A stretch of 41,502 nucleotides of DNA from a candidate division WOR-3 bacterium (GCA_016934535.1 JAFGSQ010000024.1:1-41502); one strand, 5' to 3'. Shown: positions 8,629 through 40,584, numbered from the stretch's first letter. Made by a program: numbers and translations. Notes: generated by a model not told the origin, from the letters alone.

Positions 8629-11041
8629 CCTCAAAGTATCATTTAAGTTTAAAACCTATTGGTATGTGATCATTATAGCCGTTTTATTATTGATTTCATT
8701 CGGTTATATGCTGCTTCCGGGAAGAATGCTCGATTGCGGAGATCAGCTTCTCGGGTACTCAAACAAATTATTCTCCTCTTCTAATATGCTCCACGGAAAG
8801 GGCATCCCCTTGTGGAATCCTTATCTTTTTTCCGGATTGCCTTTCATAGGGGCAATGCACGGAGACATACTTTATCCTTCTCTTTTTCTTCGCCTGATTT
8901 TTCCTCCTGAATATGCGCTTGCGCTTTTATTTTTGCTTCATTTTCTTTTTGCGGGAATTTTTATGTTTTTCTTGGCGAAAGAATTGGGTTCGGATAATTC
9001 TGTGTCCCTTCTCATAGCCTTTTTGTACATGTTCACCGGAATAATTATTTCACAGGTAAATCCGGGGCACGACGGCAAAGTAATCGTGGAATCTTTCACG
9101 CCAGCTGTTTTTTTGTTTCTCACAAAAGGGATTCGCACGAGAAGATTGTTCTATTATCTTGTCAGCGGGGGATTTATCGGACTGTGCCTTTTGGCGCCGA
9201 ATGTCCAGTTGACTTATTACATGTTGATGGGAACCTTGATATGGTTTGTATCGGAACTCGTAGGTAATTATAAAAAAGATTTTAAAAATTACTATAAAAA
9301 CATTTCTTTTGCTTTGATAGCTTTGGGATTCGCTTTAGCGGTTTCTGCCGCTCAATTTATACCATTTCTCGAATACAGCTCTCTCTCACCAAGACAAACA
9401 ACCAGAGGATGGGAATTTGCAACGAGTTGGTCAATGCCTTTACCCGAATTTTTCGACGCGATGATTTCCGGATTTTCAGGTATTAAAGAAAAATACTGGG
9501 GTGAGAATTTTTTTAAACTGCACACAGAATACATGGGTGTCATTCCGTTTTTATTCGCCCCTTTGGCTTTATTCTCAAAAAATAACCGAGACAGGAGAAG
9601 AGCATTTACGTTGGCAGGAATATCCGCCTTTTTCCTCATTGTTTCATTTGGAGGTCACACGGCTTTTTATAAACCTCTCTATATACTTATACCGGGATTC
9701 AATAAATTCAGAGCGCCCAGCATATCTTTTTTCATGTTCTGTTTCTCTCTAATTGCATCGACGTCTTTGACCATGAAAAACATACTCGCATCAGAAATTA
9801 AAAAGATGCCTTTGATTGTATTTTCGATCTTACTTTTAATTCTGATTGCATTGAGTCCGGCCCTGGCCTCAAAAATTGCTCAAAACTCCGATAAAATTGC
9901 TTTAGCTGCTCAAAACACGAAAGAATTAAACAGCGGAGCGATGATCTCATCTTTCGTTTTAATTTTTTCTGTTGCATCCATACTGCTCTGTTTAAAATAC
10001 CCCGAAAAAAAACGCTACATTTTCTTTCTTTTCTGTTTCGTCGCTTTTACTGATTTATACAGAACTAACAGCAAATTCGTACAATTCATCAGGGATGATT
10101 CAGGTAAATACCTTTCGGCGGAAGAAATATACAAACCGGATTTTTCCGTTAATTTTGTAAAAAACAACGATTCTCTTTACAGAATAATGCCAACTACATA
10201 CTTCGATCTGCTGATAACTCAAAACGGAGTTCGTCCTGTTGACAATCATTCCAGCGACAACTACCTGATGGCGAACGGACTTTATTCGCCGGGCGGATAT
10301 CACGGAAACCAGCTTCAGAGATATCAGGACCTCATAGGTCTTCCGCAGACTATAATGTTCCAGAACGGAGGACTTCTGTCGGAAAACATAAATCTTTGCA
10401 GACTTCTCGGCATCAAATTCCAGCCTCTCAGCAAAATCCTGTACTCGGAAATCGTGAGACTTTCCTCCGAAGATCCCGACAGGGCCGCTCAGCTCGCAGA
10501 CATGTTCGGGCTTTGTAAAACCGGTCGCATCAGGATGGATTCAGGCGTTGTCGTAGACGCGGGCAACATGGTTTTGCTTGTAGACACTCTCGCTCTGCCT
10601 AAAGCCTTTCTCGTTCCTTCATGCAGAGTAATAACTGATGACGAAGCCTGCCTGGCCGCAGTCCACGACGAAAACATCGATTTCTCCAGGACTGTTATTC
10701 TCTCTGAAGAGCCCGGTATTGCCGGCTCATCAGGAGGAAGCGCCGAGATAACAGAATACTCGCCCGACCGAATAAAAGTTTCAATCACTACTGAAGGGCC
10801 CTCTTTTCTCGTCATAAACGACAATTACGCCCCGGGTTGGAAAGCATACGTAGACGGAAATAATACCGAAATTTTAAGGGCGTATTACTCTCTTCGGTGT
10901 GTTCCGGTTTCATCGGGCGGAGAACACGAATTGCTGATGATTTACGATCCTCTTTCTGTTAGAATTGGATATGCAGTTACGCTTGCGGCTATAATCTTAT
11001 GGTCAATCCTCATGATAATCAGCTGGAGGAAAAAAATATGA
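8606..11041 (+). CDS. YfhO-family GT-C-type membrane glycosyltransferase
   Basis: The start is GTG with GGAGG 4 nt upstream, inside the end of the preceding gene. The first 500 residues hold about a dozen transmembrane segments, with the early loop DCGDQLLGYSN and WNPYLFSGLPF that is characteristic of YfhO proteins. The last 280 residues are a soluble domain ending in one more transmembrane helix, with NDNYAPGWKAYVDG, the usual YfhO C-terminal motif. In Firmicutes, YfhO uses undecaprenyl-phosphate sugar made by a GT2 enzyme (CsbB) to glycosylate lipoteichoic acid. Here the next gene is such a GT2, joined by an ATGA overlap. The acceptor in this organism is unknown. GC content is visibly higher in the soluble half than in the membrane half. 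Confidence 0.85.
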   Translation: MGKQSKNDLKVSFKFKTYWYVIIIAVLLLISFGYMLLPGRMLDCGDQLLGYSNKLFSSSNMLHGKGIPLWNPYLFSGLPFIGAMHGDILYPSLFLRLIFPPEYALALLFLLHFLFAGIFMFFLAKELGSDNSVSLLIAFLYMFTGIIISQVNPGHDGKVIVESFTPAVFLFLTKGIRTRRLFYYLVSGGFIGLCLLAPNVQLTYYMLMGTLIWFVSELVGNYKKDFKNYYKNISFALIALGFALAVSAAQFIPFLEYSSLSPRQTTRGWEFATSWSMPLPEFFDAMISGFSGIKEKYWGENFFKLHTEYMGVIPFLFAPLALFSKNNRDRRRAFTLAGISAFFLIVSFGGHTAFYKPLYILIPGFNKFRAPSISFFMFCFSLIASTSLTMKNILASEIKKMPLIVFSILLLILIALSPALASKIAQNSDKIALAAQNTKELNSGAMISSFVLIFSVASILLCLKYPEKKRYIFFLFCFVAFTDLYRTNSKFVQFIRDDSGKYLSAEEIYKPDFSVNFVKNNDSLYRIMPTTYFDLLITQNGVRPVDNHSSDNYLMANGLYSPGGYHGNQLQRYQDLIGLPQTIMFQNGGLLSENINLCRLLGIKFQPLSKILYSEIVRLSSEDPDRAAQLADMFGLCKTGRIRMDSGVVVDAGNMVLLVDTLALPKAFLVPSCRVITDDEACLAAVHDENIDFSRTVILSEEPGIAGSSGGSAEITEYSPDRIKVSITTEGPSFLVINDNYAPGWKAYVDGNNTEILRAYYSLRCVPVSSGGEHELLMIYDPLSVRIGYAVTLAAIILWSILMIISWRKKI

Positions 11042-11751
11042 AAGCCCTCGTAGTGATACCGACTTACAACGAAATTGAGAACATTGAAAAAATATTAATC
11101 AAGATACTCGAACAGGACGACAGACTGGATGTCCTCGTAGTTGACGATTCTTCTCCCGATAACACAGGCGAAAAAGTCCTCGAAATGAGAAAAAGCAGAC
11201 CGAGGATACATCTCAAAAGACGTTCCGGAAAGATGGGGCTCGGAACGGCTTATGTCGACGGATTCAAATGGGCAATAGAGAATAAATACGACTGCGTTTT
11301 CGAAATGGACGCGGATTTCTCTCACGACCCGACGATGCTTCCCGTATTTCTCGAAAAAATAAAGAAATACGACCTGGTAATAGGTTCAAGATACATAAAC
11401 GGAGTCAGCGTAATCAATTGGCCCATGAGCAGGCTTCTTTTGAGTTATTTCGCCAATAAATACGCCTCTCTTGTCACAGGCTGCCCCATAAAAGACCTTA
11501 CCGGCGGATTCAAATGTTTCAGAAGACAGACGCTCCAATCTCTCGACCTGAACAGGATCCATTCCGACGGATATTCCTTTCAAATTGAAATAGATTTCAA
11601 AGCCTACGCCAAGGGTTTGAAAATAAAGGAGATTCCTATTATTTTCGCCGACAGAACCGAAGGCAAGAGCAAGATGTCGAAAAAGATAATCTGGGAAGCA
11701 ATTTTCATGGTCTGGCGTCTCAGAATGGCAAAGATTTTCAGAAAATTATGA
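11038..11751 (+). CDS. Polyprenyl-phosphate sugar synthase, GT2 family (Dol-P-mannose synthase-like)
   Basis: I place the start at the ATG at 11038, which overlaps the YfhO stop as ATGA and follows AGCTGGAGGA; a GTG 39 nt upstream in frame has no such support. The 237-aa protein shows the GT2 A-fold motifs: VVIPTYNE, VVDDSSPDNTG, the metal-binding DADFSHDP and VIGSRY-x-x-G. Conserved DLTGGFKCFRR matches DPM1-type enzymes. It lacks the C-terminal transmembrane pair of CsbB/DPM-GtrA types and so is the short, peripheral form. It would transfer a hexose from a nucleotide sugar (GDP-Man or UDP-Glc type) to polyprenyl phosphate, giving the donor for the YfhO-like enzyme. It overlaps the next gene by ATGA. 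Confidence 0.88.
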   Translation: MKALVVIPTYNEIENIEKILIKILEQDDRLDVLVVDDSSPDNTGEKVLEMRKSRPRIHLKRRSGKMGLGTAYVDGFKWAIENKYDCVFEMDADFSHDPTMLPVFLEKIKKYDLVIGSRYINGVSVINWPMSRLLLSYFANKYASLVTGCPIKDLTGGFKCFRRQTLQSLDLNRIHSDGYSFQIEIDFKAYAKGLKIKEIPIIFADRTEGKSKMSKKIIWEAIFMVWRLRMAKIFRKL

Positions 11752-13136
11752 TAGTCAGCAAAACCGAAAAAATAAACAAATTTTTCTGTCTTTGGGACAT
11801 ACTTGCGACAATTCTTCTTTTCGTGTTTCTCCAGTTTTTCGTTCAGATGTTTTTCGCCGAGACGACCTATCAAACTGCCTTGCAGAGACTGCAGAGGCTT
11901 CCCTGGGTACTGCCGCTTACTGCAGTTCTCTGGGCTTTTTTCCTGAATGCCTATCAAACATATCCGAAATCAGAAACCCGTAAAACGGCTGAACTTCTCC
12001 TCCCTGTATTGAAATCAATTGTAACTTCGGGAAGCATTTTAGGCCTATTTTTCTTTTTGACGAAGTCATACATACAAAGCAGGTCGGTTTTCGTTTTGTT
12101 CATGCTTGCGGATCTCGGCATAATACTGTTAAACAGATTCCTGCTTCTAAAGATAAGGAACAAGCTGATGAAACTGAACATAATCATCATCTCCGACGAA
12201 CGCAACAGCAGAAACATAGAAAAGATAATAAGGAAAAATCTTTCAATAGGAAAAAGGATACTGGATATCATCAGAATCAAAGAAGAAATCACCGATGAGA
12301 GAATGAGTGAAATTTTCGACAAAATAAGCCTCGGAACTGTGGATTGGATAGTAGTAGGACTCGGTCCTTCCAACTACGTACATTTTAAACCTCTCGTCGA
12401 GTTCTGCGAAGAAAAAGGCGTGCCCGTCTCTCTGCTGATAGACACTTCGATAAAACCTAAAATATCCTGGCTAAAAGTCGAAGAGATATCCGGTTTTCCG
12501 TTTTTCACTTTTTACACGACTACGGGAAGAGTGTGGGGACTCATATCCAAAGACATTATTGACAAAGCGCTTGGAGTACTCGGAATTATTGTTTTATTTC
12601 CTCTTCTGGCTCTCATAAGCGCAGCCGTAAAAATATCTTCACCGGGAACTGTAATTTTCAGCCAAATCCGGAGCGGACTTAACGGGAAACCTTTCAAAAT
12701 GCTTAAGTTCAGAACAATGCGGGAAGGTTCCGAAGAGCTTCTTCCATCTCTTCTTGAAAGCAATCTTATCCAGGGTTGTGCGTTCAAACACCCTAAAGAT
12801 CCGAGAGTGACAAAAGTCGGCAAATTCCTGCGCAGGTGGAGCCTCGATGAACTTCCACAGCTCGTTAACATAATTAAAGGGGAAATGAGTTTTGTCGGTC
12901 CGAGACCCCCTCTTCCAGAAGAAGTAAAAATGTACAAGAACTGGCAGAAAAGAAAATTGTCCATGAAACCGGGACTGACTTGCCTTTGGCAAATAGGCGG
13001 CAGAAGCAAAATACTCGATTTCGACAAATGGGTCAAATTGGATCTCGAATACATTGACAATTGGTCGCTGTGGTTAGATATTAAGATCATGATCAAGACT
13101 CTTCCCGCCATAATAAGCGGGATGGGTGCTTACTGA
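11748..13136 (+). CDS. Polyprenyl glycosylphosphotransferase (WcaJ/WbaP-type initiating enzyme)
   Basis: This 462-aa protein starts within an ATGA overlap. It has four N-terminal transmembrane segments (to about residue 130), a soluble Rossmann-like middle region, a membrane re-entrant helix near residue 270, and the C-terminal catalytic sugar transferase domain. The catalytic domain shows SPGTVIFSQIRSGLNGKPF, KFRTM, LRRWSLDELPQL, VGPRPPLPEE and KPGLTCLWQ. These are the signature motifs of the polyprenyl-phosphate hexose-1-P transferase family. The reaction is transfer of sugar-1-phosphate from a nucleotide sugar to undecaprenyl phosphate, the first step in exopolysaccharide or O-antigen repeat assembly. 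It ties this operon to surface polysaccharide synthesis. Confidence 0.92.
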   Translation: MIVSKTEKINKFFCLWDILATILLFVFLQFFVQMFFAETTYQTALQRLQRLPWVLPLTAVLWAFFLNAYQTYPKSETRKTAELLLPVLKSIVTSGSILGLFFFLTKSYIQSRSVFVLFMLADLGIILLNRFLLLKIRNKLMKLNIIIISDERNSRNIEKIIRKNLSIGKRILDIIRIKEEITDERMSEIFDKISLGTVDWIVVGLGPSNYVHFKPLVEFCEEKGVPVSLLIDTSIKPKISWLKVEEISGFPFFTFYTTTGRVWGLISKDIIDKALGVLGIIVLFPLLALISAAVKISSPGTVIFSQIRSGLNGKPFKMLKFRTMREGSEELLPSLLESNLIQGCAFKHPKDPRVTKVGKFLRRWSLDELPQLVNIIKGEMSFVGPRPPLPEEVKMYKNWQKRKLSMKPGLTCLWQIGGRSKILDFDKWVKLDLEYIDNWSLWLDIKIMIKTLPAIISGMGAY

Positions 13137-13152
13137 TAAACACGGAGGTATT

Positions 13153-15300
13153 ATGTTTATATTAGCATTCCTCGCTTTTTTATTATCCGCCGGAGACGGG
13201 ATAACGATTTACACTTCTCACGCTCAAGTCAACAGACTTGAGTTTCTCGGCGGGAAACTAGTCACAATGAGTTCGGGAGGGATCTGTGTTTCCGACTCCT
13301 CGGGACACGAAGTAGTTATTAATAATTCCGACGGACTTCTCGACAACAACGCTATGGACGCAGTCTTCGACGAAAACGGGAACCTCTTCGCCGGGACTTC
13401 CAGCGGGTTGACTGTTTTTTCAAGGGACTTCTCGGAATTCATTCAGCTGACCTCTTTTTTTCAGGGTATACCTCACGGTGAAATCAGGGAACTGGAATAC
13501 AGAGACGACACACTTTGGGCCGGAGGAGAGAACGGCTGTTGGTGCTGGAACACCGGGGGCAATCCTCTCACATTTTCCTACGGACATTCATCGAGATTTT
13601 TATCGGACAGAACCGTCAACGCTCTTTTACTGAACGGAGATATTCTCGCGGCGGGAACAGTAGGCGAACTTTTTTTCATACCCGCCGGAACATTCGGGGA
13701 CACAACAACATACTCCGGTTTCTCAAAAGGATTAAGCGCGCAGGAATCAGTTCTCTCAGTTGTCGTTTACAACGACACTGTATGGATTTCGACGAGCAGT
13801 TACGTTAAATTCCTGTCGGGAGACAGTTTCGTCTCTACAGGGATAAATTCGCGAAAAATGCGCTTGTCCGTCGTTAGAGACACTCTTTTCGTCAACGATT
13901 ACGAAAACTGGTCGGTCAAAAGATGGAACAACGGAACGTGGAATCAATACGGTCCGGGAATTCCGTCGAGACCGGTCAGCGTTTCTTTGAATCCCGACGG
14001 CCGTTTATGCGCGGGAACAGCCACTCTGTCGAATTATTGCTACGAATCAAATTCGTGGAGACAAGTCATGCCTCCGGGGCTTTTTAAACCGCTCGTTTCA
14101 TCCGCCGCCATGCTCCCTAACGGTATAATAGCCGCCATACATTTCGGCAACGATTACGGAGACGCTGTCTCCCTGAGATATCCGGACGGAGAATGGGAAA
14201 TATTAACTTCTCTCAACTACGACACAACCGGTGACTGGGGAGCGGGAAGGTTTATTTCCGTCAGGAACGATTCTACTTTTGTAATAGGGGTCTGGGGCAG
14301 GCCGGGCGCTCTGATTTTCCTTTATCCCGGTAAAACGAGCGCCGACTCCTCCCGTTTCGAAAAACTGGCTCTGCCATACACTCCAAGCGATCAGCAACAG
14401 CCGATAAGCGCTTTGACCGTCGACCCCAACGGAGACGTATGGTGCGCTTCTTTCGACAATCAGGGCCCGTATCTATTCAGGGTAAAACCGGACAACTCGG
14501 TAATAACTTATTACAACAATCTTTTTATATATATTTATTCAATATGCATGCTCAAAGACGGAAGAGTGGCTTTCGGAACGGCTCATTTGAACGCCAACGG
14601 TTTCGCAAGCATTTTCAATCCGTCGGATTCCTCCGTTTCCCCTGAAATACTGACGCTGTCCGGAAACGACATAAACTCAATAGACAACTTTAAGGACCAT
14701 CTTATCTTCATAGGGTCCAACGGCGGTATAAACACATTCGACTTAACCTCTTACACGGTCACAGACACAATAACTAATTCAAACACACAGGGCGGTTTGA
14801 TAGGTCCTTCAGTGGTTTCTCTCCTCTACATTCCCGGAAACGGTCTTTGGGCGTTGTGCGATAACGCGGGGCTCTCGCACAGGAAAGAAGACGGCACCTG
14901 GGAAAAATTCGAACAGCCTTCGACTCTTCCGGGCATTCCTGTAGGAGATAACAGAGGGGGTCTTTTCTATCATGCCGATTCAGGTATTCTGTTAGTCCCG
15001 ACGAGCAAGGGACTTTGCCTGTTTCCAGTAAAAAGCGAATCCGACGCAACCGAGGGTGAACTGCTTGTTTTCCCTAATCCGTGGCGCCTTGACTGCCCAT
15101 TGACTTTAGTGACTGACAGCGCAGAATATTTTTACATTTATTCTATGGACGGAATGCTTGTATATTCTTCGGCTTTATCAGACAATGGAAATCTAGTAAT
15201 ACAACCTCAATCGCTAAGCGAAATTGCGTCCGGTCTTTATTTCGTCGTCGCTAAATCAAACAAGACGACTGCGAGAGGAAGGCTCGTTATCGTAAGATAA
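13153..15300 (+). CDS. Secreted beta-propeller protein with C-terminal sorting domain
   Basis: I choose the ATG at 13153, preceded by GGAGG (13144-13148) and starting a signal peptide (MFILAFLAFLLSAGDG). An in-frame GTG at 13126 lies inside the previous gene and would bury the signal. The 715-aa protein has repeated blades of the sort V-x-x-GDTVW-[IA]-[GS]-T or LWAGG, each ending in a W-x-x-G or FDLTSYTV type strand. These resemble the sensor propellers of hybrid histidine kinases, but no kinase follows. The end (LVFPNPW, YSMDGMLVYSS, ASGLYFVVAK, LVIVR) is a T9SS type A-like sorting domain. It is co-transcribed with the glycan assembly genes, so an exported envelope role is likely; the ligand is unknown. 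Confidence 0.8.
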   Translation: MFILAFLAFLLSAGDGITIYTSHAQVNRLEFLGGKLVTMSSGGICVSDSSGHEVVINNSDGLLDNNAMDAVFDENGNLFAGTSSGLTVFSRDFSEFIQLTSFFQGIPHGEIRELEYRDDTLWAGGENGCWCWNTGGNPLTFSYGHSSRFLSDRTVNALLLNGDILAAGTVGELFFIPAGTFGDTTTYSGFSKGLSAQESVLSVVVYNDTVWISTSSYVKFLSGDSFVSTGINSRKMRLSVVRDTLFVNDYENWSVKRWNNGTWNQYGPGIPSRPVSVSLNPDGRLCAGTATLSNYCYESNSWRQVMPPGLFKPLVSSAAMLPNGIIAAIHFGNDYGDAVSLRYPDGEWEILTSLNYDTTGDWGAGRFISVRNDSTFVIGVWGRPGALIFLYPGKTSADSSRFEKLALPYTPSDQQQPISALTVDPNGDVWCASFDNQGPYLFRVKPDNSVITYYNNLFIYIYSICMLKDGRVAFGTAHLNANGFASIFNPSDSSVSPEILTLSGNDINSIDNFKDHLIFIGSNGGINTFDLTSYTVTDTITNSNTQGGLIGPSVVSLLYIPGNGLWALCDNAGLSHRKEDGTWEKFEQPSTLPGIPVGDNRGGLFYHADSGILLVPTSKGLCLFPVKSESDATEGELLVFPNPWRLDCPLTLVTDSAEYFYIYSMDGMLVYSSALSDNGNLVIQPQSLSEIASGLYFVVAKSNKTTARGRLVIVR

Positions 15301-15301
15301 T

Positions 15302-17314
15302 ATGGGAGCCTACATCCAGCTTTCGGATTTTCTTTGTTCAGCTGAATCAAGTTCTTTTTACTCTGAAAAGCTTAAAAAGCAAGGTTACGGACCATTCGCT
15401 TCCCACACGCTTAGGCTGACAAGATCTGTATCCGGCGCATCTCATTCGAAACAGGCTTCTTTATTCGTCGAGAAACACAGAAAAACAGGTGTTATAAGAG
15501 TTTCTTTCGAAGGCAATTTAAAAACCGAACTGTCGGATATGCTTTTAAAGACTTTGACCAAAAAAAGTTCCGAAAAAAACATTGATCTCGAAAAAACTCT
15601 CTATCATCTGTATTCGAGGATTTCGGAGACTGATCCTGATCTGATCCCCATTCTCGATGCGTCAGTCTATAAACTGGCTGAAATAGCTACCGCTCCAGTA
15701 TTGTTCTCGCTTCCTGCAAAAGACGCTGTAAACAAAGCCAGTTCTGTAGCGGGAAGGCTAAGAGAAGCCCTCAGAAGCGTCAGAAAACTTTTAAAAAGCA
15801 GAAACACCTCTTTCAATCTGTGGCTCGATCTGACAATTTTACCTGTTGTAGGACCTGTGTGGGATGATCTTTCACTTGAAATTGCGTCAAACATAATTAG
15901 CGAACTCGGTCTGCCACCGACTATTTTTTCGTCAATTTACAAATCGGTTTCCAAATACGCTATATCCAGAGAAATCGCCAAGTTCACCGATGAAAAACCG
16001 CGATTCAGCTCGGAAGACCTCTCAATACTTGAAGAGAGGATAAACAGACTCGGTTCGGAAATCTCGATTGAGGACCTGAAAAAACTTGAAAAATCGGCCA
16101 AAAAAAATCCTGTTGAAATCGGCAGAAGCTTTCATTTGATGTCCGAAAAACAATCACTAAGTTTTTCTGATGTAATAAACTCATTCGAAAATCTTTTCGA
16201 ACTGATAGCTTTTCCTCCGGGAGACCTGCTCAATCTGATTTCAGACGAGCTCACTCAGCAATACAGGTTCATTTCTAAAATTGATAAAAAAGATTCCAAA
16301 ATTGAACAGGAAAACATAATTCTTAGAAACCTAAACCTCGCGGGAAAAAAATACATGGCTGACGCAAAAGGCGCGCTCGATGGCGTCAGAGCTATTATTG
16401 TAGGTGTTTTCGAACCCATAATGACCGCAAAATCCTTTATCGAGACACTGAGAATCTGGCCTGACGAAGAACTCAACGAGAGTTGGAGCCCCTGGGACGT
16501 AGCCAATCACGCCGCTCTTGTCCTGGTCGAAAACGAGAATTTCTATCGTTTCGGACTACAAGGAAAAGTCATTCTCGATAGGGACAAGGACCAGCCGCTA
16601 TTCAAAGAAATTAACGAAAAAATAAACTCTTCGTCGGCAATCCTCACTCTCGTCTTCGGAGACATAGAGACTACATCGGACGAAGACACCGAAGGTCTGT
16701 TTTCGAGCGTCTCTGAAATAATAGACCACATTAGAAAAGCGAATCTTTCGATCCGGTCTTTTGGCCCGTTGACTTTTGCTGTTACGGCTGATAATTCCGA
16801 GGGAGGAGCCATGAAGATTGCCAAAGTGCTTGACGCGCTCATACCCTTCGACGAAACTCCCGTGCCGGGGATAGGCATAGCTTCAGCTCCCTACGGAGAG
16901 GGTTTCTTAGCCAAGACTTACTCCGAAGGCGTTCTCGTAGCAGCCGGAGAAACAGTCAAACGCTCCATGATACTTTCCAGGCTTTCATGGAGCGTCAAAA
17001 GGGTTCTGTGTGATCTTTCATCGACTCTTTCCCTAATAAAATATTGCGACGAATTCAGGATACTCCCATACAGAAGCGCTTCCTTTCCGCAGTTTGACGA
17101 CCCGAAGGAAATTCTCGCGAATATTCTGTACAGAAGGACAGAACCTCACGACATCGCTATGATGTCTCCCCCTCTTCACTTTCAGTTTTTCGGAGCTCTG
17201 AACAAGTCCCGCCAGCTGATTTCAACGGACGATTACGGCGGAGATTTGTCAACTCTGACGGGAAGCAACATAGAAGGTCCGGTTTTTTCGATCACGAAAA
17301 AGCGTCCGGATTAA
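15302..17314 (+). CDS. Uncharacterised 670-aa soluble protein with a possible degenerate nucleotide-cyclase-like domain
   Basis: I do not recognise this protein as a whole. It starts 2 nt after the preceding stop with no clear Shine-Dalgarno, so translation is probably coupled. No signal peptide or transmembrane helix is visible. Residues 1-440 or so are mostly helical and charged. Residues about 445-570 read like the class III cyclase fold: a strand ILTLVFGDIE, a helix, a strand pair LSIRSFGPLTFAVT, a helix GGAMKIAKVLDAL, a strand GIGIASAPYGEG and AAGETVKRSMILSR in the position of the VN-x-AAR helix. The metal Asp, Asn and Arg pattern is not intact, so activity is unlikely. Its stop shares the four bases TTAA with the convergent GT4 gene. 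Confidence 0.6.
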   Translation: MGAYIQLSDFLCSAESSSFYSEKLKKQGYGPFASHTLRLTRSVSGASHSKQASLFVEKHRKTGVIRVSFEGNLKTELSDMLLKTLTKKSSEKNIDLEKTLYHLYSRISETDPDLIPILDASVYKLAEIATAPVLFSLPAKDAVNKASSVAGRLREALRSVRKLLKSRNTSFNLWLDLTILPVVGPVWDDLSLEIASNIISELGLPPTIFSSIYKSVSKYAISREIAKFTDEKPRFSSEDLSILEERINRLGSEISIEDLKKLEKSAKKNPVEIGRSFHLMSEKQSLSFSDVINSFENLFELIAFPPGDLLNLISDELTQQYRFISKIDKKDSKIEQENIILRNLNLAGKKYMADAKGALDGVRAIIVGVFEPIMTAKSFIETLRIWPDEELNESWSPWDVANHAALVLVENENFYRFGLQGKVILDRDKDQPLFKEINEKINSSSAILTLVFGDIETTSDEDTEGLFSSVSEIIDHIRKANLSIRSFGPLTFAVTADNSEGGAMKIAKVLDALIPFDETPVPGIGIASAPYGEGFLAKTYSEGVLVAAGETVKRSMILSRLSWSVKRVLCDLSSTLSLIKYCDEFRILPYRSASFPQFDDPKEILANILYRRTEPHDIAMMSPPLHFQFFGALNKSRQLISTDDYGGDLSTLTGSNIEGPVFSITKKRPD

Positions 17315-18567
17315 AAGCTTTCATACCTGATTTTGTCGAGTTCTTCGCAAAGACTCCCCGTGAGTTTTTTCCTGTCGTAATCAGGATGCGATCTGCGTGA
17401 ATTTAACGACCGCCTTGATTTTTTTTTGATCAGGTCTTTTATTTTCTCAGAAAGTGTTTCATGGTCGTCGGGGGAAACCACATCTCCGGCTCCGGTCTTT
17501 CTCAAAACTTCTGCGGCGTCAGTATTGTTCGGAATCGAAGCGATTATCGGAAGTCCCGTTCCGAGATAATCAAACAGCTTGCCAGTTGAGACGGCATCTC
17601 CTTCCGAAGGAGAAATGTAAAACCACAAAACATCAGATTTCATTGCCTCTTTAATTGCGTCTTTGTGACTCAGGTAGCCAAGGCTCTCAATTTTTACTTT
17701 CAGACCTTTCTCTTCGGCCGTTTTCAGAGCGCTGTCGGAATTTTTTCCTATAAACACAGCTTTGATATTTTCAAATCTGAGCAGGTCCAGAGCTCTGAGA
17801 AGGACGTCAGGTTTTCTCCCTCTCAAAAGCGAACCCATATGACAAACTGTGAATGTCTCCCTGCTTTGCAGAACCATTTCGGGAAAATCATCCGGATCGT
17901 AACCGTGAGAAATTACGGCGGTGTTTTTCGTGCCGTGCCTTTCTAATATGCTGTTTCTGATTTTTTCGTTTATAGTTATGATCAAAGACGAATTCCTGAC
18001 TACCGATTTTTCCAGTTCAAGATTGAACCACGCGTGGTATTTCGTCGCGCTCGGAAATAGTTTTTCGTCAATCCAGGGATCTCTGAAATCTATGGCGAGC
18101 GGCAGTCCGCATCTTTTACTGACCAGAAGTCCGGCGAGGGCAGATGAAAAAGGAGGAACAGAACACATGACAGCGTCGAATTTGATTTTCCCGCAAAGTC
18201 TCACAGCGTAATCGGCGCAGAAGGGCACCCAGCCGATCTCCGGATCTGGAAACGCGAAAGAACGTGATTTTCCAAAATTTGAAAGTTTTTCCTTTTTTGG
18301 CGACAGAAAAAATTTTTCGAAAAATGGAAGATGAAAATGGTCCAAAGAAGGTATTCTGTGGATATCAGTTTTATTCCTGATTTCTTCATACATTTTTCTG
18401 TCGAAAGCGAAGTACCATCGAGGTCTGGATGTCAGTACAGTAGCTGACCAACCGAAATCAGGCATGTATTTGCAGAATTTAGCCTGTCTCTGAACGCCCG
18501 ACAATCCGAGAGGGGGGAAAAAATATGATATGAAAAGAAGTTTTTTGACTGTTTCGGTTTTTTTCAA
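17311..18567 (-). CDS. Glycosyltransferase family 4 (GT-B fold)
   Basis: The protein (418 aa) has the N-terminal GT4 signature FISYFFPPLGLSGVQR, a middle LAIDFRDPW motif, and the C-terminal donor-binding region VCHMGSLLRGRKPD, then SPSEGDAVSTGKLFDYLGTGLPII, where the glutamate of the E-x-x-x-x-x-x-K/E-type motif sits. It transfers a nucleotide-activated sugar during glycan synthesis. The start is TTG at 18567 with no Shine-Dalgarno. The frame is closed just upstream by the TGA that ends the previous gene in the same frame, so reinitiation is likely. It is the last gene of the long minus-strand run and converges on the glycan operon. Confidence 0.85.
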   Translation of the reverse strand: MKKTETVKKLLFISYFFPPLGLSGVQRQAKFCKYMPDFGWSATVLTSRPRWYFAFDRKMYEEIRNKTDIHRIPSLDHFHLPFFEKFFLSPKKEKLSNFGKSRSFAFPDPEIGWVPFCADYAVRLCGKIKFDAVMCSVPPFSSALAGLLVSKRCGLPLAIDFRDPWIDEKLFPSATKYHAWFNLELEKSVVRNSSLIITINEKIRNSILERHGTKNTAVISHGYDPDDFPEMVLQSRETFTVCHMGSLLRGRKPDVLLRALDLLRFENIKAVFIGKNSDSALKTAEEKGLKVKIESLGYLSHKDAIKEAMKSDVLWFYISPSEGDAVSTGKLFDYLGTGLPIIASIPNNTDAAEVLRKTGAGDVVSPDDHETLSEKIKDLIKKKSRRSLNSRRSHPDYDRKKLTGSLCEELDKIRYESF

Positions 18568-33812: not shown

Positions 33813-34916
33813 TCAGGCGGTTTCAGAAAACAAAACAGTGCGGTTTTTCCCGCGTCTTTTTGCTTCATACATCGCTTTATCGGCATAAAACAGCAATTCG
33901 TCTTCATTCTTTATCCCGCCTATCTTTGAAGCTTCGGCAACTCCGAGGCTTATTGTTTTCTTAAAATTCGTGCTTCCTGTTTTGAATTCGATTTCTGATA
34001 TTTTTTTTCTTATTTTCTCGGCGATTCGTTTCGCCTGATCTTCGTCCGTATTAGGAAGCAAAACGAGAAACTCCTCTCCACCGAAACGGCCGGCCGTGTC
34101 TTCTTTTCTTATCCCGTCAAAAATGACGCCGGCAATTTTTTTGAGTACTTCGTCGCCGACGAGATGGCCGTATTCATCGTTGCACTTTTTGAAATCGTCA
34201 ATGTCTATCATCACGCAGGACAGAGGGGAGCCGTGCCTTTTGGTTCTGCTGAATTCCTTTTCGAGGGAGTCCATTACGTAAGCCCTGTTATGGATGCCTG
34301 TGAGCCTGTCAGTTATAGCCGTCCTGTAAAGTTCAGCATTCTTTTTCTGAAGCTCCGAGTTAAGGTTTTCGATTTTCTCGTTGATGTTTTTAAGATCTTC
34401 GTTTCTTTTCTCCAGTTCAAGTTTAGCGTTTTCCAGCTGTTTGTACAGGTCTTTTATCTTTTTTAGATATCCGAGAGTCAGTACGCTGACACCGTCGGAT
34501 CTTCTCAATTTCTCGATTATCTCATCTACGATGTTCGAATACGTTTTCGGAAGAACTTCGAATATCTTCGAAAGTTCCCTGGGTTCTATGACGGCTATTT
34601 TTGTGTCTGAAACCGCGTAAACACTGGCAGAAGTTGTCTTGTCGTGACCCAGAACACCCAGCTCTCCGAATATTTCACCTTCTTCCCTGTGAGCTATGTG
34701 AACTTCCTTGTCGTCGGACATTGATTTGGCGACCTTTACCTGGCCTTGAAGAATGAGATAAAGATTTCCGGCTTTTGAATTTTCCTGAATAATGGTCTCG
34801 TTAGGTTCGAAATCCGTTATTGTAAAAAATTCCTCGGGTATCTTTTTTATGTCATTTGCGGCTACGTTTCTGAAAAAACGGTTTGCCGCCAGTTTGGAAA
34901 TTACAATTTCGTCCAT
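33813..34916 (-). CDS. Cyclic-nucleotide-binding-like domain plus GGDEF diguanylate cyclase
   Basis: I place the start at ATG 34916, downstream of the promoter at 34944-34973; an ATG at 34994 would precede that promoter. The 367-aa protein begins with a CRP/cNMP-binding fold (about residues 10-130) with FEPNETIIQENSKAGNLYLI and GEIFGELGVLG. In the phosphate-binding cassette the CRP arginine position is Thr (HDKTTSASVYA), so cyclic nucleotide binding is doubtful. A coiled coil (about 160-215) leads to the GGDEF domain. Its active loop is GGEEF (279-283), with an RKED product-inhibition site exactly five residues before it. The enzyme should make c-di-GMP. It is divergent from the double-cyclase gene and heads the long minus-strand run. 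Confidence 0.9.
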   Translation of the reverse strand: MDEIVISKLAANRFFRNVAANDIKKIPEEFFTITDFEPNETIIQENSKAGNLYLILQGQVKVAKSMSDDKEVHIAHREEGEIFGELGVLGHDKTTSASVYAVSDTKIAVIEPRELSKIFEVLPKTYSNIVDEIIEKLRRSDGVSVLTLGYLKKIKDLYKQLENAKLELEKRNEDLKNINEKIENLNSELQKKNAELYRTAITDRLTGIHNRAYVMDSLEKEFSRTKRHGSPLSCVMIDIDDFKKCNDEYGHLVGDEVLKKIAGVIFDGIRKEDTAGRFGGEEFLVLLPNTDEDQAKRIAEKIRKKISEIEFKTGSTNFKKTISLGVAEASKIGGIKNEDELLFYADKAMYEAKRRGKNRTVLFSETA

Positions 34917-34943: not shown

Positions 34944-34973
34944 TCTATAACATCGAATGTCTTTTTTCAACAA
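34944..34973 (-). promoter_or_regulatory. Promoter for the cNMP/GGDEF gene and the long minus-strand run
   Basis: Read on the minus strand, TTGTTG (34973-34968) is followed after 18 bp by TATAGA (34949-34944). The -10 box has an upstream TGT, giving an extended -10. The predicted start near 34937 leaves a leader of about 20 nt before ATG 34916. It stands back-to-back with the plus-strand promoter, the two -35 boxes being 14 bp apart. Confidence 0.5.
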
Positions 34974-34987
34974 CTCTTTGCTTTCTG

Positions 34988-35015
34988 TTGACAAGCCAGG
35001 CCCGTTAACTATACA
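34988..35015 (+). promoter_or_regulatory. Near-consensus sigma70-type promoter for the double-cyclase gene; leaderless mRNA likely
   Basis: A perfect TTGACA (34988-34993) is followed after 16 bp by TATACA (35010-35015). The expected start point, 6-8 nt downstream, falls on or next to the ATG at 35023. There is no Shine-Dalgarno before that ATG, which agrees with a leaderless transcript. Confidence 0.6.
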
Positions 35016-35022
35016 TAATCCT

Positions 35023-38000
35023 ATGCGCGATTTGATCCCTCAATTCATAGCGGCAAATTATTCCAACGGAGTTAAATGCGGCAAATTTGACGGTGCAGTC
35101 ATTTTCGCAGACATATCGGGATTCACGGAGATGACTAAAACCCTCATGGAAAAAGGCACCGAAGGTATAGAAGTACTCACCCTTACCATAAACGACGTTT
35201 TTACCCCGGCTCTTTCTATCGTCAGTTCCTCAGGCGGATTCGTGACGGTTTTCGGAGGAGACGCTTTCTACGCCGTTTTCGATTCCTCTTCAGACGATTT
35301 TACATCGAGAGCTCTTTTTTGCGCGCAGGAAATCACGAAACTGTTCGAAGAGTCAGGAATAAAAAAGACATCGTCAGGCGTATTCACTCTATCAGTCAAA
35401 ACCGGTCTTTCCCTCGGTGAAATCAACTGGGGCATAATTGAAAATCCATTTCAGAACTCGTATTATTTCAAAGGGCCTCCGATAGATTCGGCGGCAAAAA
35501 TCCAGAGTTTCTGCAAAAAAAACTCTGTCGCCGCAGACGGTTTTTTCGCGGCTTCTTTCAAAGACCGCAGGATGTTTCATCAAACAGAAAACGGCGTCTT
35601 TTCAACGCTTTGTAAAGTTTCTCCCACAAAAAACAGGCTTCATCAAAAAAAGACCGCTTTTTCTGTTGCTAAAAGTTTCTTCCCTGCCGGAATTTTAGAG
35701 ACTACGGTTAAAGGCGAGTTCAGAGAGGTAGTAAGCGTTTTTTTTTCTTTCAAAGACACTCCTTTTACTTCCGATAACATATCAAAAACAATAAGCCTCG
35801 TCGCGAAGACCGGAGGATATTTCAACAGAGTGAGTTACGGCGACAAAGGCGGTTTCGTTCTCGCTTTTTTCGGCGCACCCTCCGGTAAAGAACTGCTCTG
35901 CGAAAGAGCTTCAAAAATGGCGCTTTCCGTCTCGAAAATACCGGATTTTATGATTTGCGCCGGAATTTCTTTCGGAATGTGCTTCGCCGGTTTCACAGGA
36001 AGCGAAGAAAGAGCAGAATACACCTGTCAGGGTGAAAAAGTTAATCTCGCAGCGAGACTAATGTCGCTCAAGGACGAAAACCTGCCCCGGGAGCCCAGAA
36101 TTCTCATAGATAAGGAGGTCTTCGGTAAAATTAAAGACGGGTTCTCTGCGGAATTCCTGAAAAACGCCACCTTGAAAGGTTTCGAAGAACCGGTTCCTGT
36201 CTATCTGCTGAGTGATGACAGAGAAGAAAGATCCCGCGTTCGTAAAGGCGGGAAAATAGTCGGAAGACAGAAACAGCTCAGAGCCGCATCTGACCTTTTA
36301 ACGAAGGCAAAGGAAGGCGCCGGAGGAGTATTGATGCTGAAAGGAGACGCGGGGACAGGAAAAAGCTTTTTTATAGAGGAGCTGGCGTCGCTTCATCCTT
36401 CCTTCACTTGGATATTCATGCCCTGCGATCAGATATTCAGATCTTCTCTGAATCCCGCTTCTCATTTCATCAAGGATTTTTTTTCCATATCAAAAAATGC
36501 GAATTCCGAAAATACTCTTGAATCGATAAGGGAAAAGACAAAAAAAATTATGATGAGCGGCGAAATCCGCGACAAGAGAGAACATGATATAATCGTCTAT
36601 TATTTTGCAACTCTCGCGGGACTGAACCCAAAAGACTCTTTTCTCGACTCTCTCAATCCGAAGAATAAAAAAGATGAAACCGTCTATTATGTCAAATCGC
36701 TCATAAAGTCGATGTCCCAAAATAATCCGACGGCGGTTTTCATAGACGACCTTCACTGGATTGACGAAGATTCGAAGGTTCTTCTCAAGGATATTTGTTC
36801 AAACACCCTGAACTTACCTCTCGTCGTAATAACGGCTCAGCGCCCGATTGATGAAATTGTTGAAAGATCTTTCATGCAGGACCTGCCGGGTCGGGTGACA
36901 CAAATTATGCTCGAACCGTTTTCCCGCAGTGATTCATACGAACTCGTCCGCGAACTTCTCGGCTCTGACGAAGTCCCGCTGTCTACACTCGACAGAATAC
37001 ACGACAAATCCGAGGGCAATCCCTTCTTCATTCAGCAGACAGTGAGTTTTCTGACTGAAAATAAAATTTTGTCCGATGATTTCAGATTTTCAGAGGGCAC
37101 GGATTTCATACCGTCAGACGTCCGGACAATTATCGTCTCCAGGGTGGACAGATTTGAAAAATTCCTGAAAAATGCCGTTTTGAAAGCTTCCGTCCTCGGA
37201 AGAGAATTTTCATCTGATATCCTGGCCTCCATGGATCTGGAAAGACCTCTCGAAAATGTTATTGCCGATGGACTCCGGACAAATGTATGGAGAAATATCG
37301 GAGGACGGAAATTCGAGTTCACGCACGCACTCATAAGGGACTCGGTTTACGATATGCAGTTAAAAAGCGACCTGAGGGCGCATCATGCCAGAGCCGCGAG
37401 AATTTACGAAAATTTGCCCGGGGACAGGCGGGAATCCGATCCGGGTATAATTGCCCATCACTACGATATGGCTATGGACTCGGAAAAAGCGCCCTTTTTT
37501 TTGAAAAAAGCGATTGAAAAAGCTGAAAATAACTTCGCAACAAGTGATGCACTGCGGTTTTGCGACGCTCTCGACAAATATCTTCCTCCGGGAAAAGAAA
37601 AAATCTCAAACTCAATAGAAAAAACAAAACTGATGCTTTTGGATGGAAATCTCAACGAAGCGGAGATTTTCGGAGAAAAAATTCTTTCGGAAATCACAAA
37701 AAGCCGCGAAAACGATTTTCTGCCGAAATGCCTTCTCCGTTTGATAGAGATCACTCAAAGACTTTTCAAACTCGACAAAAACATGTCTTATATTAAACAG
37801 GCCAAAAAATATCTGGCGACATTTAAAGACGAGGATTTCGAAATGGACATCCTCAAAGCCACCGCTTTTTATTGGCACAGCAAGGAAAATATAAAAAAAG
37901 CGTTTGAATATTTTGAAAAAGCCCTCGATCTTTCCCGCAGACTGAAAGACAAAAAATCGGAATCACACCTGCTGTCGGACATAGCAATATTCTGCGGCAA

Positions 38001-38892
38001 TGAACTCGGATTCGACAAAGTGCTGGATTATCTTTTTGAAGGTCTGAAAATCGCCGAAGAAATCGGAGACATAAAAAATGAAGAGATAATCTACTCAAAC
38101 ATCGCTCTTTCATACCAGGAACTTTTCCTCGACGTCGAAAAAAGCTTCGAATACTATCAAAAAGCGATGTCTCTTTCACAAAAGTTCGGTGACAAGCCGG
38201 CGCTGATGAATGAACTGAATAACATTGCTATAATTTATCAACTGAAAGGAGATGACGAATCCGCACTCGATTGCTTCAACCGGTCCCTCGACATGGCTGT
38301 TGAAAAAGGACACAAAATGGCTTCAGTTAACGCTCTTGGAAACCTGTCGGCTTACTTCAGATTCTCGGGTAATTTCACAAAATCCCTCGGTTACATAGAA
38401 AGAGCAGAAAGAATGGTAGAAAACACGCCGATGGAAGAACTGCTCCTGAGGATACTCATGGACAAATTCGAAACAATTCTCGGGCTTAAAGATTTCGAGG
38501 CAGCGGAAAAACTTCTGGAAAGGATAAATTTAATACACCGAAAACTTCACTCCTGTGACTGGGAAAAATACGCCTTCGGAAAATTGAGAATTTTTTACCT
38601 CACTACGGGTGAAAAACATGCGATAATCTCAATGGAAAATGAAGCGGAAAAAATAAAGGAAAAGTCTGTCAAGGCGTCTTTTTACTTGAAAATATGGGAA
38701 ATCACAGGTTCCAGTAAATACGCGGAACTGTCACGCGAATTTTTCACAAGAATAATAGAAGAGCCTCCTGAAAACTACAAAGATTTCTACTGGATTCTGC
38801 AAAGAAGAAAACTTGAAAAGTTTCTCGAAAAAAATTCAACCGCAGACGGGAAGCCGGAAAGTGAAAACACTTCCGGCACATCCTTCGGATGA
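35023..38892 (+). CDS. Double class III nucleotide cyclase with AAA-type ATPase and TPR domains (ADCY10-like architecture)
   Basis: The start is the ATG just after the promoter; an upstream ATG at 34957 precedes it. The 1289-aa protein is soluble. Cyclase domain 1 (about 22-170) keeps both metal Asp residues (FADISGFT Asp30, GGDAF Asp80) but has GPPIDSAAKIQ where Asn and Arg should be. Domain 2 (about 230-400) lacks the first metal Asp (VFFSFKDTPFT) but keeps Lys275 (GDKGG), Thr334, Asn341 and Arg345 (VNLAAR). One composite site would form between them. A P-loop ATPase follows: Walker A GDAGTGKS (near 441), Walker B AVFIDDLHWID (near 570), GNPFF motif, then winged-helix-like and TPR regions (about 850-1200). 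The Lys/Thr pair points to ATP and cAMP. It overlaps the histidine kinase gene by 57 nt. Confidence 0.9.
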   Translation: MRDLIPQFIAANYSNGVKCGKFDGAVIFADISGFTEMTKTLMEKGTEGIEVLTLTINDVFTPALSIVSSSGGFVTVFGGDAFYAVFDSSSDDFTSRALFCAQEITKLFEESGIKKTSSGVFTLSVKTGLSLGEINWGIIENPFQNSYYFKGPPIDSAAKIQSFCKKNSVAADGFFAASFKDRRMFHQTENGVFSTLCKVSPTKNRLHQKKTAFSVAKSFFPAGILETTVKGEFREVVSVFFSFKDTPFTSDNISKTISLVAKTGGYFNRVSYGDKGGFVLAFFGAPSGKELLCERASKMALSVSKIPDFMICAGISFGMCFAGFTGSEERAEYTCQGEKVNLAARLMSLKDENLPREPRILIDKEVFGKIKDGFSAEFLKNATLKGFEEPVPVYLLSDDREERSRVRKGGKIVGRQKQLRAASDLLTKAKEGAGGVLMLKGDAGTGKSFFIEELASLHPSFTWIFMPCDQIFRSSLNPASHFIKDFFSISKNANSENTLESIREKTKKIMMSGEIRDKREHDIIVYYFATLAGLNPKDSFLDSLNPKNKKDETVYYVKSLIKSMSQNNPTAVFIDDLHWIDEDSKVLLKDICSNTLNLPLVVITAQRPIDEIVERSFMQDLPGRVTQIMLEPFSRSDSYELVRELLGSDEVPLSTLDRIHDKSEGNPFFIQQTVSFLTENKILSDDFRFSEGTDFIPSDVRTIIVSRVDRFEKFLKNAVLKASVLGREFSSDILASMDLERPLENVIADGLRTNVWRNIGGRKFEFTHALIRDSVYDMQLKSDLRAHHARAARIYENLPGDRRESDPGIIAHHYDMAMDSEKAPFFLKKAIEKAENNFATSDALRFCDALDKYLPPGKEKISNSIEKTKLMLLDGNLNEAEIFGEKILSEITKSRENDFLPKCLLRLIEITQRLFKLDKNMSYIKQAKKYLATFKDEDFEMDILKATAFYWHSKENIKKAFEYFEKALDLSRRLKDKKSESHLLSDIAIFCGNELGFDKVLDYLFEGLKIAEEIGDIKNEEIIYSNIALSYQELFLDVEKSFEYYQKAMSLSQKFGDKPALMNELNNIAIIYQLKGDDESALDCFNRSLDMAVEKGHKMASVNALGNLSAYFRFSGNFTKSLGYIERAERMVENTPMEELLLRILMDKFETILGLKDFEAAEKLLERINLIHRKLHSCDWEKYAFGKLRIFYLTTGEKHAIISMENEAEKIKEKSVKASFYLKIWEITGSSKYAELSREFFTRIIEEPPENYKDFYWILQRRKLEKFLEKNSTADGKPESENTSGTSFG

Positions 38893-40584
38893 AACACTTA
38901 TGTTTCCTCCGTGAAGTTCGACCAGTCTTTTGACTATTGAAAGACCGAGGCCTGTCGTCTGTTCTCCGTTTGTTCCCAATCTCCTCGCTTCGGTGAATTT
39001 GTCGAATATTTTTTTTTTCATGTCATCGGGAATCCCTATTCCGTCGTCGGCTACGGAAACGACGGCCGATTCTGAATGATCAGCATTCTCTTTTCTCAAT
39101 GTCACTGATATTTTTCCGCCTTTGCTCGTGAATTTGAGAGCGTTCGAGAAAAGATTCTGCATAATCTGCCAGAATCTGTTGAAATCGACGCGGCAAATAC
39201 ATTCTCCGGATTCGTTTATCCATTCAAAGTCGACGCCTTTTTTCTGTGACAATCTCCTAAAATCTCCTGAAAATTCCGTTATCAGGCCGGATATGTCAAG
39301 TTTCTGAAGATCGAGCGAAAAATCCTCGCTTTCGATTTTGTTGACTTCAAGTATGTCATCGACAAGAACGAGAGCCCTTGTTACGTAATGATTGATTACA
39401 TTGATCGTCTCTTCAACCTCATCGTTGAGTTTCTGCTGCAGGGACAACATCTGCGACAGAGGCAGAATGGATCCTATAGTACCTTTGAGGTCGTGAGAGA
39501 CCACTCTCAGTATTGTGTCTTTGGACATGTTTATAGCGAGCAGTTCTTCGTTTTTTTTGGCGAGTTCCGCATTCTGGTTTTCTATTTTCGCGTAAGCACT
39601 CGCCAGTTCTTCATTTTTCATTTTATATATTTCCGCTTCCCTTTCCTTGACCCTAACTTCGAATCTTGCGTCCATTTCAGCTATTTTCGCGGTTTTTTCC
39701 TCGTTGAAAATGGCTTCCATTTTTTCAGCGCGGACCCGGCTGAAATAAAGAGCGTTTTGCAAATCTCCTTTTGTCTCAAATAACTCCGAAAGTATTTTTG
39801 CCGAATTCATCTGCCCCAAATTGTTTTCCGTGGAAAAATAAATGTCAAAAGCCTCTTTTGCGTATTCTAAAGATTTTTCAACATCCCCTTTTTCTTTCAT
39901 CACAAGGCCAATATTAAAAATCGCAGGAGCCTCCCCGTTTCTGTCTCCTAACTCATGCTTTAATGATAGAGCTTTTTCGTAAAATGTCAGGGCTTCGTCG
40001 AGATTCCCAGTTTCCCTGTATATCTCTCCGATGTTGTTGAAAATAAATGAAAGCGCTCTTTTGTCGCCCGTCTTTTCCGCGATTGTCCTCGCCCGTTCCA
40101 GGTATTCGAGACCTTTCTTGAATTCGCCGAAGCTTCTGTAGACGTTTGCTATGTTGTTACAGCTCTGCTGAATCCATTTGTCTACATTTTCCTTTTCTCT
40201 TATTTCAAGGGATTTTTTCATATATGTCAGCGCTTTTTCCCTCATATTCATCTTGGCAAAGACAATGCCTATTCCTTCGTATGAACTGGTCAGGGGATCA
40301 GTGTCCGTTTCCGTCTGGGCGACTTTGTGAAAATATTCGAGGGCCTTGTCGAAATCAGACATCTGAAAGCAAAGAAAACCGAGACGCAGAAGAGCCTTGC
40401 TTTTTTTCCCGTCTATGCCTTTTTTTTCACATATCTCAAGGGCAGTCAGAGCGCAGTTGAATGAAGGAACTATTTCGTATTTGTCGAAAAATTCTCTTGC
40501 TTTTTTGAGGAGAAAAGTGACCTTTCCCTCATCAGATGAAAGAGTCTCTACTTCGTCAAGGACATTTTCAGCTTTATCTGCCAT
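38836..40584 (-). CDS. Cytoplasmic TPR-sensor histidine kinase
   Basis: Good AGGAG precedes the ATG. Residues 1-290 or so are TPRs (repeats such as NNIANVYRSFGEFKKGLEYLERA and NNIGEIYRETGNLDEALTFYEKA), followed by a coiled coil (about 300-350). The H-box is VVSHDLKGTIG (His364), and the HATPase has NLFSNALKF (N), DDGIGIPDD (G1), KIFDKF (F) and TTGLGLSIVKRL (G2). There is no transmembrane segment and no receiver domain, so its partner response regulator must lie elsewhere. TPR-kinases of this type probably sense protein partners. The 3' end is antisense to the end of the double-cyclase gene. Confidence 0.9.
   Translation of the reverse strand: MADKAENVLDEVETLSSDEGKVTFLLKKAREFFDKYEIVPSFNCALTALEICEKKGIDGKKSKALLRLGFLCFQMSDFDKALEYFHKVAQTETDTDPLTSSYEGIGIVFAKMNMREKALTYMKKSLEIREKENVDKWIQQSCNNIANVYRSFGEFKKGLEYLERARTIAEKTGDKRALSFIFNNIGEIYRETGNLDEALTFYEKALSLKHELGDRNGEAPAIFNIGLVMKEKGDVEKSLEYAKEAFDIYFSTENNLGQMNSAKILSELFETKGDLQNALYFSRVRAEKMEAIFNEEKTAKIAEMDARFEVRVKEREAEIYKMKNEELASAYAKIENQNAELAKKNEELLAINMSKDTILRVVSHDLKGTIGSILPLSQMLSLQQKLNDEVEETINVINHYVTRALVLVDDILEVNKIESEDFSLDLQKLDISGLITEFSGDFRRLSQKKGVDFEWINESGECICRVDFNRFWQIMQNLFSNALKFTSKGGKISVTLRKENADHSESAVVSVADDGIGIPDDMKKKIFDKFTEARRLGTNGEQTTGLGLSIVKRLVELHGGNISVSSEGCAGSVFTFRLPVCG

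Follow-up and report, generated by a model that had tools for sequence, protein, structure and literature searches.

Accounts of how animal soluble adenylyl cyclase (sAC, ADCY10) arose usually connect it with single-domain bacterial cyclases. A close relationship between sAC and bacterial cyclases was reported (PMC3085406), and PMC3918592, which cites Kobayashi et al. 2004, describes the domain structure as conserved between bacterial and eukaryotic sACs. In the single-domain types, the Asp/Asp and Asn/Arg pairs stand together in one domain, from which a homodimer is expected. The DNA analyzed here (the window, a stretch of 41,502 nucleotides from a candidate division WOR-3 bacterium) encodes a protein that differs from these types in having two unequal cyclase domains per chain. 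It is probably a soluble class III nucleotidyl cyclase of the sAC type with one composite site, gated by a STAND-type ATPase and TPRs, and its product is most likely cAMP.

The Locus and Its Domain Layout

A sequence-only reading of the window had placed a gene at 35023–38892 and given its product two cyclase domains, a P-loop ATPase and TPRs in the order known from ADCY10. The gene is real: a plus-strand frame is open over 34957–38892 (1311 codons, stop at 38892), and its ATG at 35023 is where an orthologue from a candidate division WOR-3 MAG (L013, 51% identical) starts with Met. Since this start is common to the orthologue, it is preferable to 34957. The residue numbers used here refer to the 1311-aa frame and equal those of the sequence-only reading plus 22. 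The Pfam matches on the product are two segments of Guanylate_cyc, one AAA_16 and one TPR_12, which confirms the domain order (Table 1). The closest solved relatives of the TPR solenoid are the TPRs of GPSM2/Pins.

Table 1. Coordinates of the tandem cyclase, its domains and residues, and the adjacent genes (window numbering).
Feature	Coordinates	Strand	Remarks
sAC-type tandem class III cyclase	35023..38892	+	1289 aa (conserved start); upstream-open to ATG 34957, 1311 aa
C1 cyclase domain	35080..35556	+	residues 42-200
C1 metal Asp D52	35110-35112	+	aligns with human ADCY10 D47
C1 metal Asp D102	35260-35262	+	aligns with human ADCY10 D99
C2 cyclase domain	35713..36216	+	residues 253-420
C2 R291	35827-35829	+	adenine Lys column, human K334
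C2 K297	35845-35847	+	Lys of invariant DKG (DKGGF), aligns with human K340
C2 T356	36022-36024	+	aligns with human T405
C2 N363	36043-36045	+	aligns with human N412
C2 R367	36055-36057	+	aligns with human R416
AAA_16 / STAND-type P-loop NTPase	36256..36831	+	residues 434-625
Walker A GDAGTGKS	36343-36366	+	in AAA_16/STAND; plus Walker B-like VFIDDLHWID
TPR solenoid	37879..38502	+	residues about 975-1182
Cyclic-nucleotide-binding domain + GGDEF, divergent neighbour	33813..34916	-	GGEEF, RxxD I-site; frame open to TTG 34994
Cytoplasmic TPR histidine kinase, convergent neighbour	38836..40584	-	3' end overlaps cyclase by 57 bp

Fold and Domain Pairing

Profile alignment and structure prediction both relate the cyclase domains to ADCY10. 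When a profile built from 21 tandems was compared with the PDB, ADCY10 was the best solved relative with 187 bits over both domains, and the next molecule, CyaB, had 91. An AlphaFold model of residues 21–432 was obtained with 78 alignment rows, mostly distant single-domain cyclases from viral contigs, and is of moderate confidence (pLDDT 73.9, pTM 0.73); an earlier model made from a two-sequence alignment (pLDDT 31.8) was discarded. In a Foldseek search of the PDB, ranks 1–24 were all human sAC (TMq 0.65–0.71, about 460 columns), followed by the AC9 core, and single-domain cyclases had TMq values of 0.31–0.37. Because the values over both domains are far above the single-domain ones, C1 and C2 appear to be placed as in the sAC pseudo-dimer, and the head-to-tail pairing on which the sequence-only reading depended is thus present in the model. 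The predicted domain packing is approximate, as the full-chain fit of the model to sAC has an rmsd of 7–10 Å.

The Split Catalytic Site

The catalytic residues were assigned in an alignment of 56 tandems from four family genomes with distant bacterial tandems and the human ADCY10 stretches from the PDB search. The two metal Asp read from the sequence as Asp30 and Asp80 are D52 and D102. An intact cyclase domain has Asn and Arg at the positions matching human C1 173 and 177. Here, the alignment puts D177 and K181 at these positions, so that the loss of both residues from C1, which had also been read from the sequence, is borne out. In C2, Thr334, Asn341 and Arg345 of that reading correspond to T356, N363 and R367. 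Its Lys275 (K297) was taken from the wrong column, that of human K340; it is R291 that aligns with the adenine-contacting K334. The metal Asp pair, the Thr, the Asn and the Arg are retained in the orthologues despite an overall identity of 46–51%. The proposal of one catalytic site within a single chain therefore stands, since the composite site is complete for the metal-binding and transition-state residues.

The same division of residues extends to the relatives. Asp/Asp in C1 together with Asn/Arg in C2 was found in 47 of the 56 same-family tandems and in all 26 distant ones, and none of these 82 bacterial tandems has Asn and Arg in C1, which leaves no second catalytic site in any of them. 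This pattern is far beyond chance and, as judged from the alignment, the one-site architecture is maintained. The complete residue set of an adenylyl cyclase is present in 22 of the 56 family tandems, and in another 10, including the window protein, K334R is the sole difference. The metal and Asn/Arg residues are kept with changed purine-reading residues in 15, and a metal or Asn/Arg residue is lost in nine.

With nine of 56 paralogues degenerate, a non-enzymatic role is possible in the tandem family, and the cyclase domains of the window protein could then be a pseudo-enzyme that binds ATP and serves the STAND/TPR part as a regulator or scaffold. Degenerate paralogues do occur in the same genomes (L032, L087, L074 and L020), and a class III cyclase-like ATP-binding protein of P. 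aeruginosa (6yii) is among the lower-ranked fold matches. However, the retention of the metal Asp pair, Thr, Asn and Arg described above argues against this reading, and a pseudo-enzyme is improbable, slightly more so than the change of substrate discussed below.

Three of the degenerate tandems, L032 (G000), L087 (G002) and L074 (G001), are apparent orthologues in which the first Asp of C1 and the Arg of C2 are lost and the P-loops are intact. They appear to be conserved pseudo-cyclases.

Substrate

Of the adenine-reading Lys and Thr of ATP-specific adenylyl cyclases (human K334 and T405), the Thr is present as Thr356, and the Lys is replaced by R291. Orthologues L077, L060, L061, L091 and L092 also have Arg at this position, and Lys occupies the column in 24 of the 56 family members. 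Because an Arg that is kept in the orthologues stands for the adenine Lys, the choice of substrate is not assured. The sequence-only reading had suggested ATP use and regulated cAMP synthesis; this is favored by the purine-reading Thr and weakened by the Arg at the other purine-reading position. The incomplete pair lowers the claim of ATP specificity but leaves membership in the tandem family unaffected.

The Arg could mark a cyclase with a changed preference, for GTP or a pyrimidine nucleotide, and its retention in the five orthologues suggests that the change was selected or fixed. In guanylyl cyclases, the second purine-reading residue is usually Cys or Ser, and in sAC-type adenylyl cyclases it is Thr. 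T356 conforms to the latter, and the exchange of Lys for Arg keeps the charge. PADLOC gave weak matches to PycC, a pyrimidine cyclase family; these reach an E-value of 4e-11 at best, cover a single domain and are generic class III homology, no Pycsar effector gene is adjacent, and the neighboring cyclic-nucleotide-binding (CNB) protein is a GGDEF protein. In favor of a shift in substrate, the Dictyostelium sAC homologue is reported as a guanylyl cyclase, according to the title of reference 39 in PMC6660944. On balance, a changed substrate is unlikely, and ATP would probably be the substrate of an active enzyme.

A Pycsar defense system was also considered and rejected, as the PycC matches are partial and weak (E 4e-11 and worse) and neither a PycTM nor a PycTIR effector is adjacent.

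Ancestry of the Two Domains

It was found that each half of human ADCY10 pairs with the corresponding bacterial half. Human C1 scored 97.4 bits with the bacterial C1 HMM and does not appear among the matches of the bacterial C2 HMM; human C2 scored 79.5 bits with the C2 HMM and 14.7 bits with the C1 HMM. In a FastTree phylogeny that also contained 11 single-domain cyclases, the 83 C1 domains and the 83 C2 domains each form one clade that includes the matching human half (support 0.999 and 0.996). The same two clades were recovered by IQ-TREE from 51 domains with bootstrap values of 99 and 100, and with values of 82 and 86 when the catalytic motif regions (39 columns) were left out. Given this half-by-half pairing, a common ancestral tandem appears to be the source of the split site, rather than convergence.

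The competing explanation is that a single-domain cyclase was duplicated in bacteria and gave them a split site of their own, so that the likeness to ADCY10 would be convergent. A possible source of such a tandem exists, since single-domain cyclase-STAND-TPR proteins (L015, L018 and L017) are encoded in the same genome. However, the trees and HMM scores pair the human and bacterial halves, even without the catalytic motifs, and convergence, already disfavored on these grounds, is very improbable. A shared tandem is thus preferred, and the human halves are nearest to L132, L134 and L135 in the FastTree phylogeny and to L137 in the IQ-TREE one, not to the window's family. Human ADCY10 is the sole eukaryotic sequence in these trees, and the direction of transfer is outside their reach.

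Distribution and Paralogue Expansion

The genome of origin (2.23 Mb, 100% complete, 3.9% contamination) has 22 PF00211 matches. About 14 of its proteins are sAC-type tandem cyclases, of which one is truncated by a contig end. Proteins with a single cyclase domain are also encoded, and several of these carry STAND and TPR parts. Comparable tandem sets were found in three related genomes. The tandem profile matched strongly in 41 of 386 sampled genomes (37 of the 333 good ones) from many families. Pfam also found AAA_16 in the distant tandems L132, L134, L135 and L117, and TPR matches in L132 and L117, the sequences analyzed ending before the C terminus. It had been argued that similar bacterial multi-domain cyclases exist and that the novelty of the window protein lies in its degree of match to ADCY10. 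The first part is correct, but the likeness is not peculiar to the window protein, which is one of 14 tandem paralogues in its genome and belongs to a type present in about one in ten sampled bacterial genomes.

A query with the single protein for related loci returned one relative only, and the tandem alignment run against viral contigs returned weak single-domain cyclases only. More than 400 candidate class III cyclases were matched on IMG/VR contigs (L144–L223), mostly of one divergent single-domain type.

Taken more broadly, and tentatively, the unequal C1–C2 pair of animal sAC may have been made already in bacteria, and the WOR-3 family may have expanded it to about 14 cyclases in each small genome, working in parallel under STAND/TPR gating. 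Some of them (including that of the window, with Arg for Lys) could be substrate-shifted or non-catalytic signal modules.

Neighboring Genes and Cyclic-Nucleotide-Binding Proteins

The divergent pair of a cyclase and a cNMP-binding-GGDEF gene was seen in genomes G000 and G002. Genomes G001 and G003 have the two homologues at contig ends, which is consistent with the same pair but no proof of it, and nadC follows the cNMP-binding-GGDEF gene in G000, G001, G002 and G003. The protein is possibly a switch from a cyclic nucleotide to c-di-GMP. In the window's genus, the Arg of its phosphate cassette is replaced (HDKTT, with Thr in the window, and DDKIT); the homologue L226 of the other genus, in G003, has the canonical Arg (NRPRSA). 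The GGDEF neighbor was lowered as a candidate for the direct receiver of cAMP because of this replacement.

The GGDEF neighbor is one of five cNMP-binding proteins encoded in the genome of origin. The other four, a CRP-like regulator, a CNB-MscS channel and two stand-alone CNB proteins, have the canonical cassette Arg. The MscS-type channel on contig G000:C65 (L035) has a C-terminal cyclic-nucleotide-binding domain with a canonical phosphate cassette and is a candidate cAMP-gated channel.

On the other side, the TPR histidine kinase adjoins the orthologous cyclase in four of four family genomes of both genera, with overlapping 3' ends. A TPR histidine kinase also lies beside a second cyclase (G000:C37:64629-69062); L026 and L081 show a similar kinase beside a tandem cyclase other than that of the window. 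Elsewhere in the window, positions 7678–18567 hold an envelope/polysaccharide-like cluster with LPG_synthase_TM, GT2, bacterial sugar transferase and GT1, in which several large ORFs (8606–11041, 13126–15300 and 15302–17314) have no Pfam match.

Proposed Mechanism and Its Meaning

In the mechanism proposed, C1 and C2 of the same chain would pack against each other head to tail and share one composite site. C1 would give this site the two metal-binding Asp, and C2 would give it the transition-state Asn/Arg as well as the residues that read the purine. The symmetry-related second site no longer has the residues for catalysis. Together, the STAND-type ATPase and the TPR solenoid would act as a sensor and switch that sets the cyclase output, the input probably being a protein or a small-molecule signal. 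The product, most likely cAMP, may be read by the CRP-like regulator, the CNB-MscS channel and the stand-alone CNB proteins that the genome also encodes.

With a bacterial family that has the two-domain, one-site form, it becomes possible to test whether the tandem came first, in bacteria. The natural composite-site variants of this family, among them a change of the adenine-pocket Lys to Arg and the loss of the bicarbonate residues, can be used to separate catalysis from regulation. Fourteen such proteins in a genome of 2.2 Mb are a remarkable investment in one type of signaling enzyme.

Comparison with Known Systems

ADCY10 (PDB 4clf, 4oya and others) shares with the window protein the C1-C2-P-loop NTPase layout, the one composite site, the metal Asp of C1, the Thr/Asn/Arg of C2, the DKG hairpin in C2, the fold and the domain-by-domain phylogeny. 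They differ in that the identity across the catalytic core is about 20–22%, the adenine Lys334 is Arg in the window protein, and the human domains are closest, among the sequences sampled, to other bacterial tandems. The bicarbonate-binding residues of the ADCY10 structures, K95 and R176, are replaced by Val (V98) and Ala (A180). A Thr was reported as a predictor of whether sAC-like cyclases are regulated by bicarbonate (PMC3383692). This is probably T356 in the window protein, so that regulation in another mode is possible.

AC-beta of Plasmodium falciparum likewise has two sAC-like domains with the motifs spread over both and an expected intramolecular heterodimer (PMC3383692), but it is eukaryotic and has charged insertions in its catalytic domains. 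The TOMM kinase/cyclase fusion protein (TIGR03903) matches residues 403–879, the STAND ATPase region; the match scores 143 bits against a curated cut-off of 706, and the window protein is without a kinase domain.

In a limited literature search, which makes for weak evidence of novelty, no description was found of a bacterial tandem with domain-by-domain kinship to ADCY10 or of a 14-copy expansion. Single-domain cyclases of the sAC type in bacteria (Kobayashi et al. 2004, as cited by others; also L015, L018 and L017) have the class III domain, the STAND ATPase and the TPRs in common with the window protein. Bacterial sAC-type cyclases have thus already been described, and what is added here is the ancestry of the tandem split site and its expansion.
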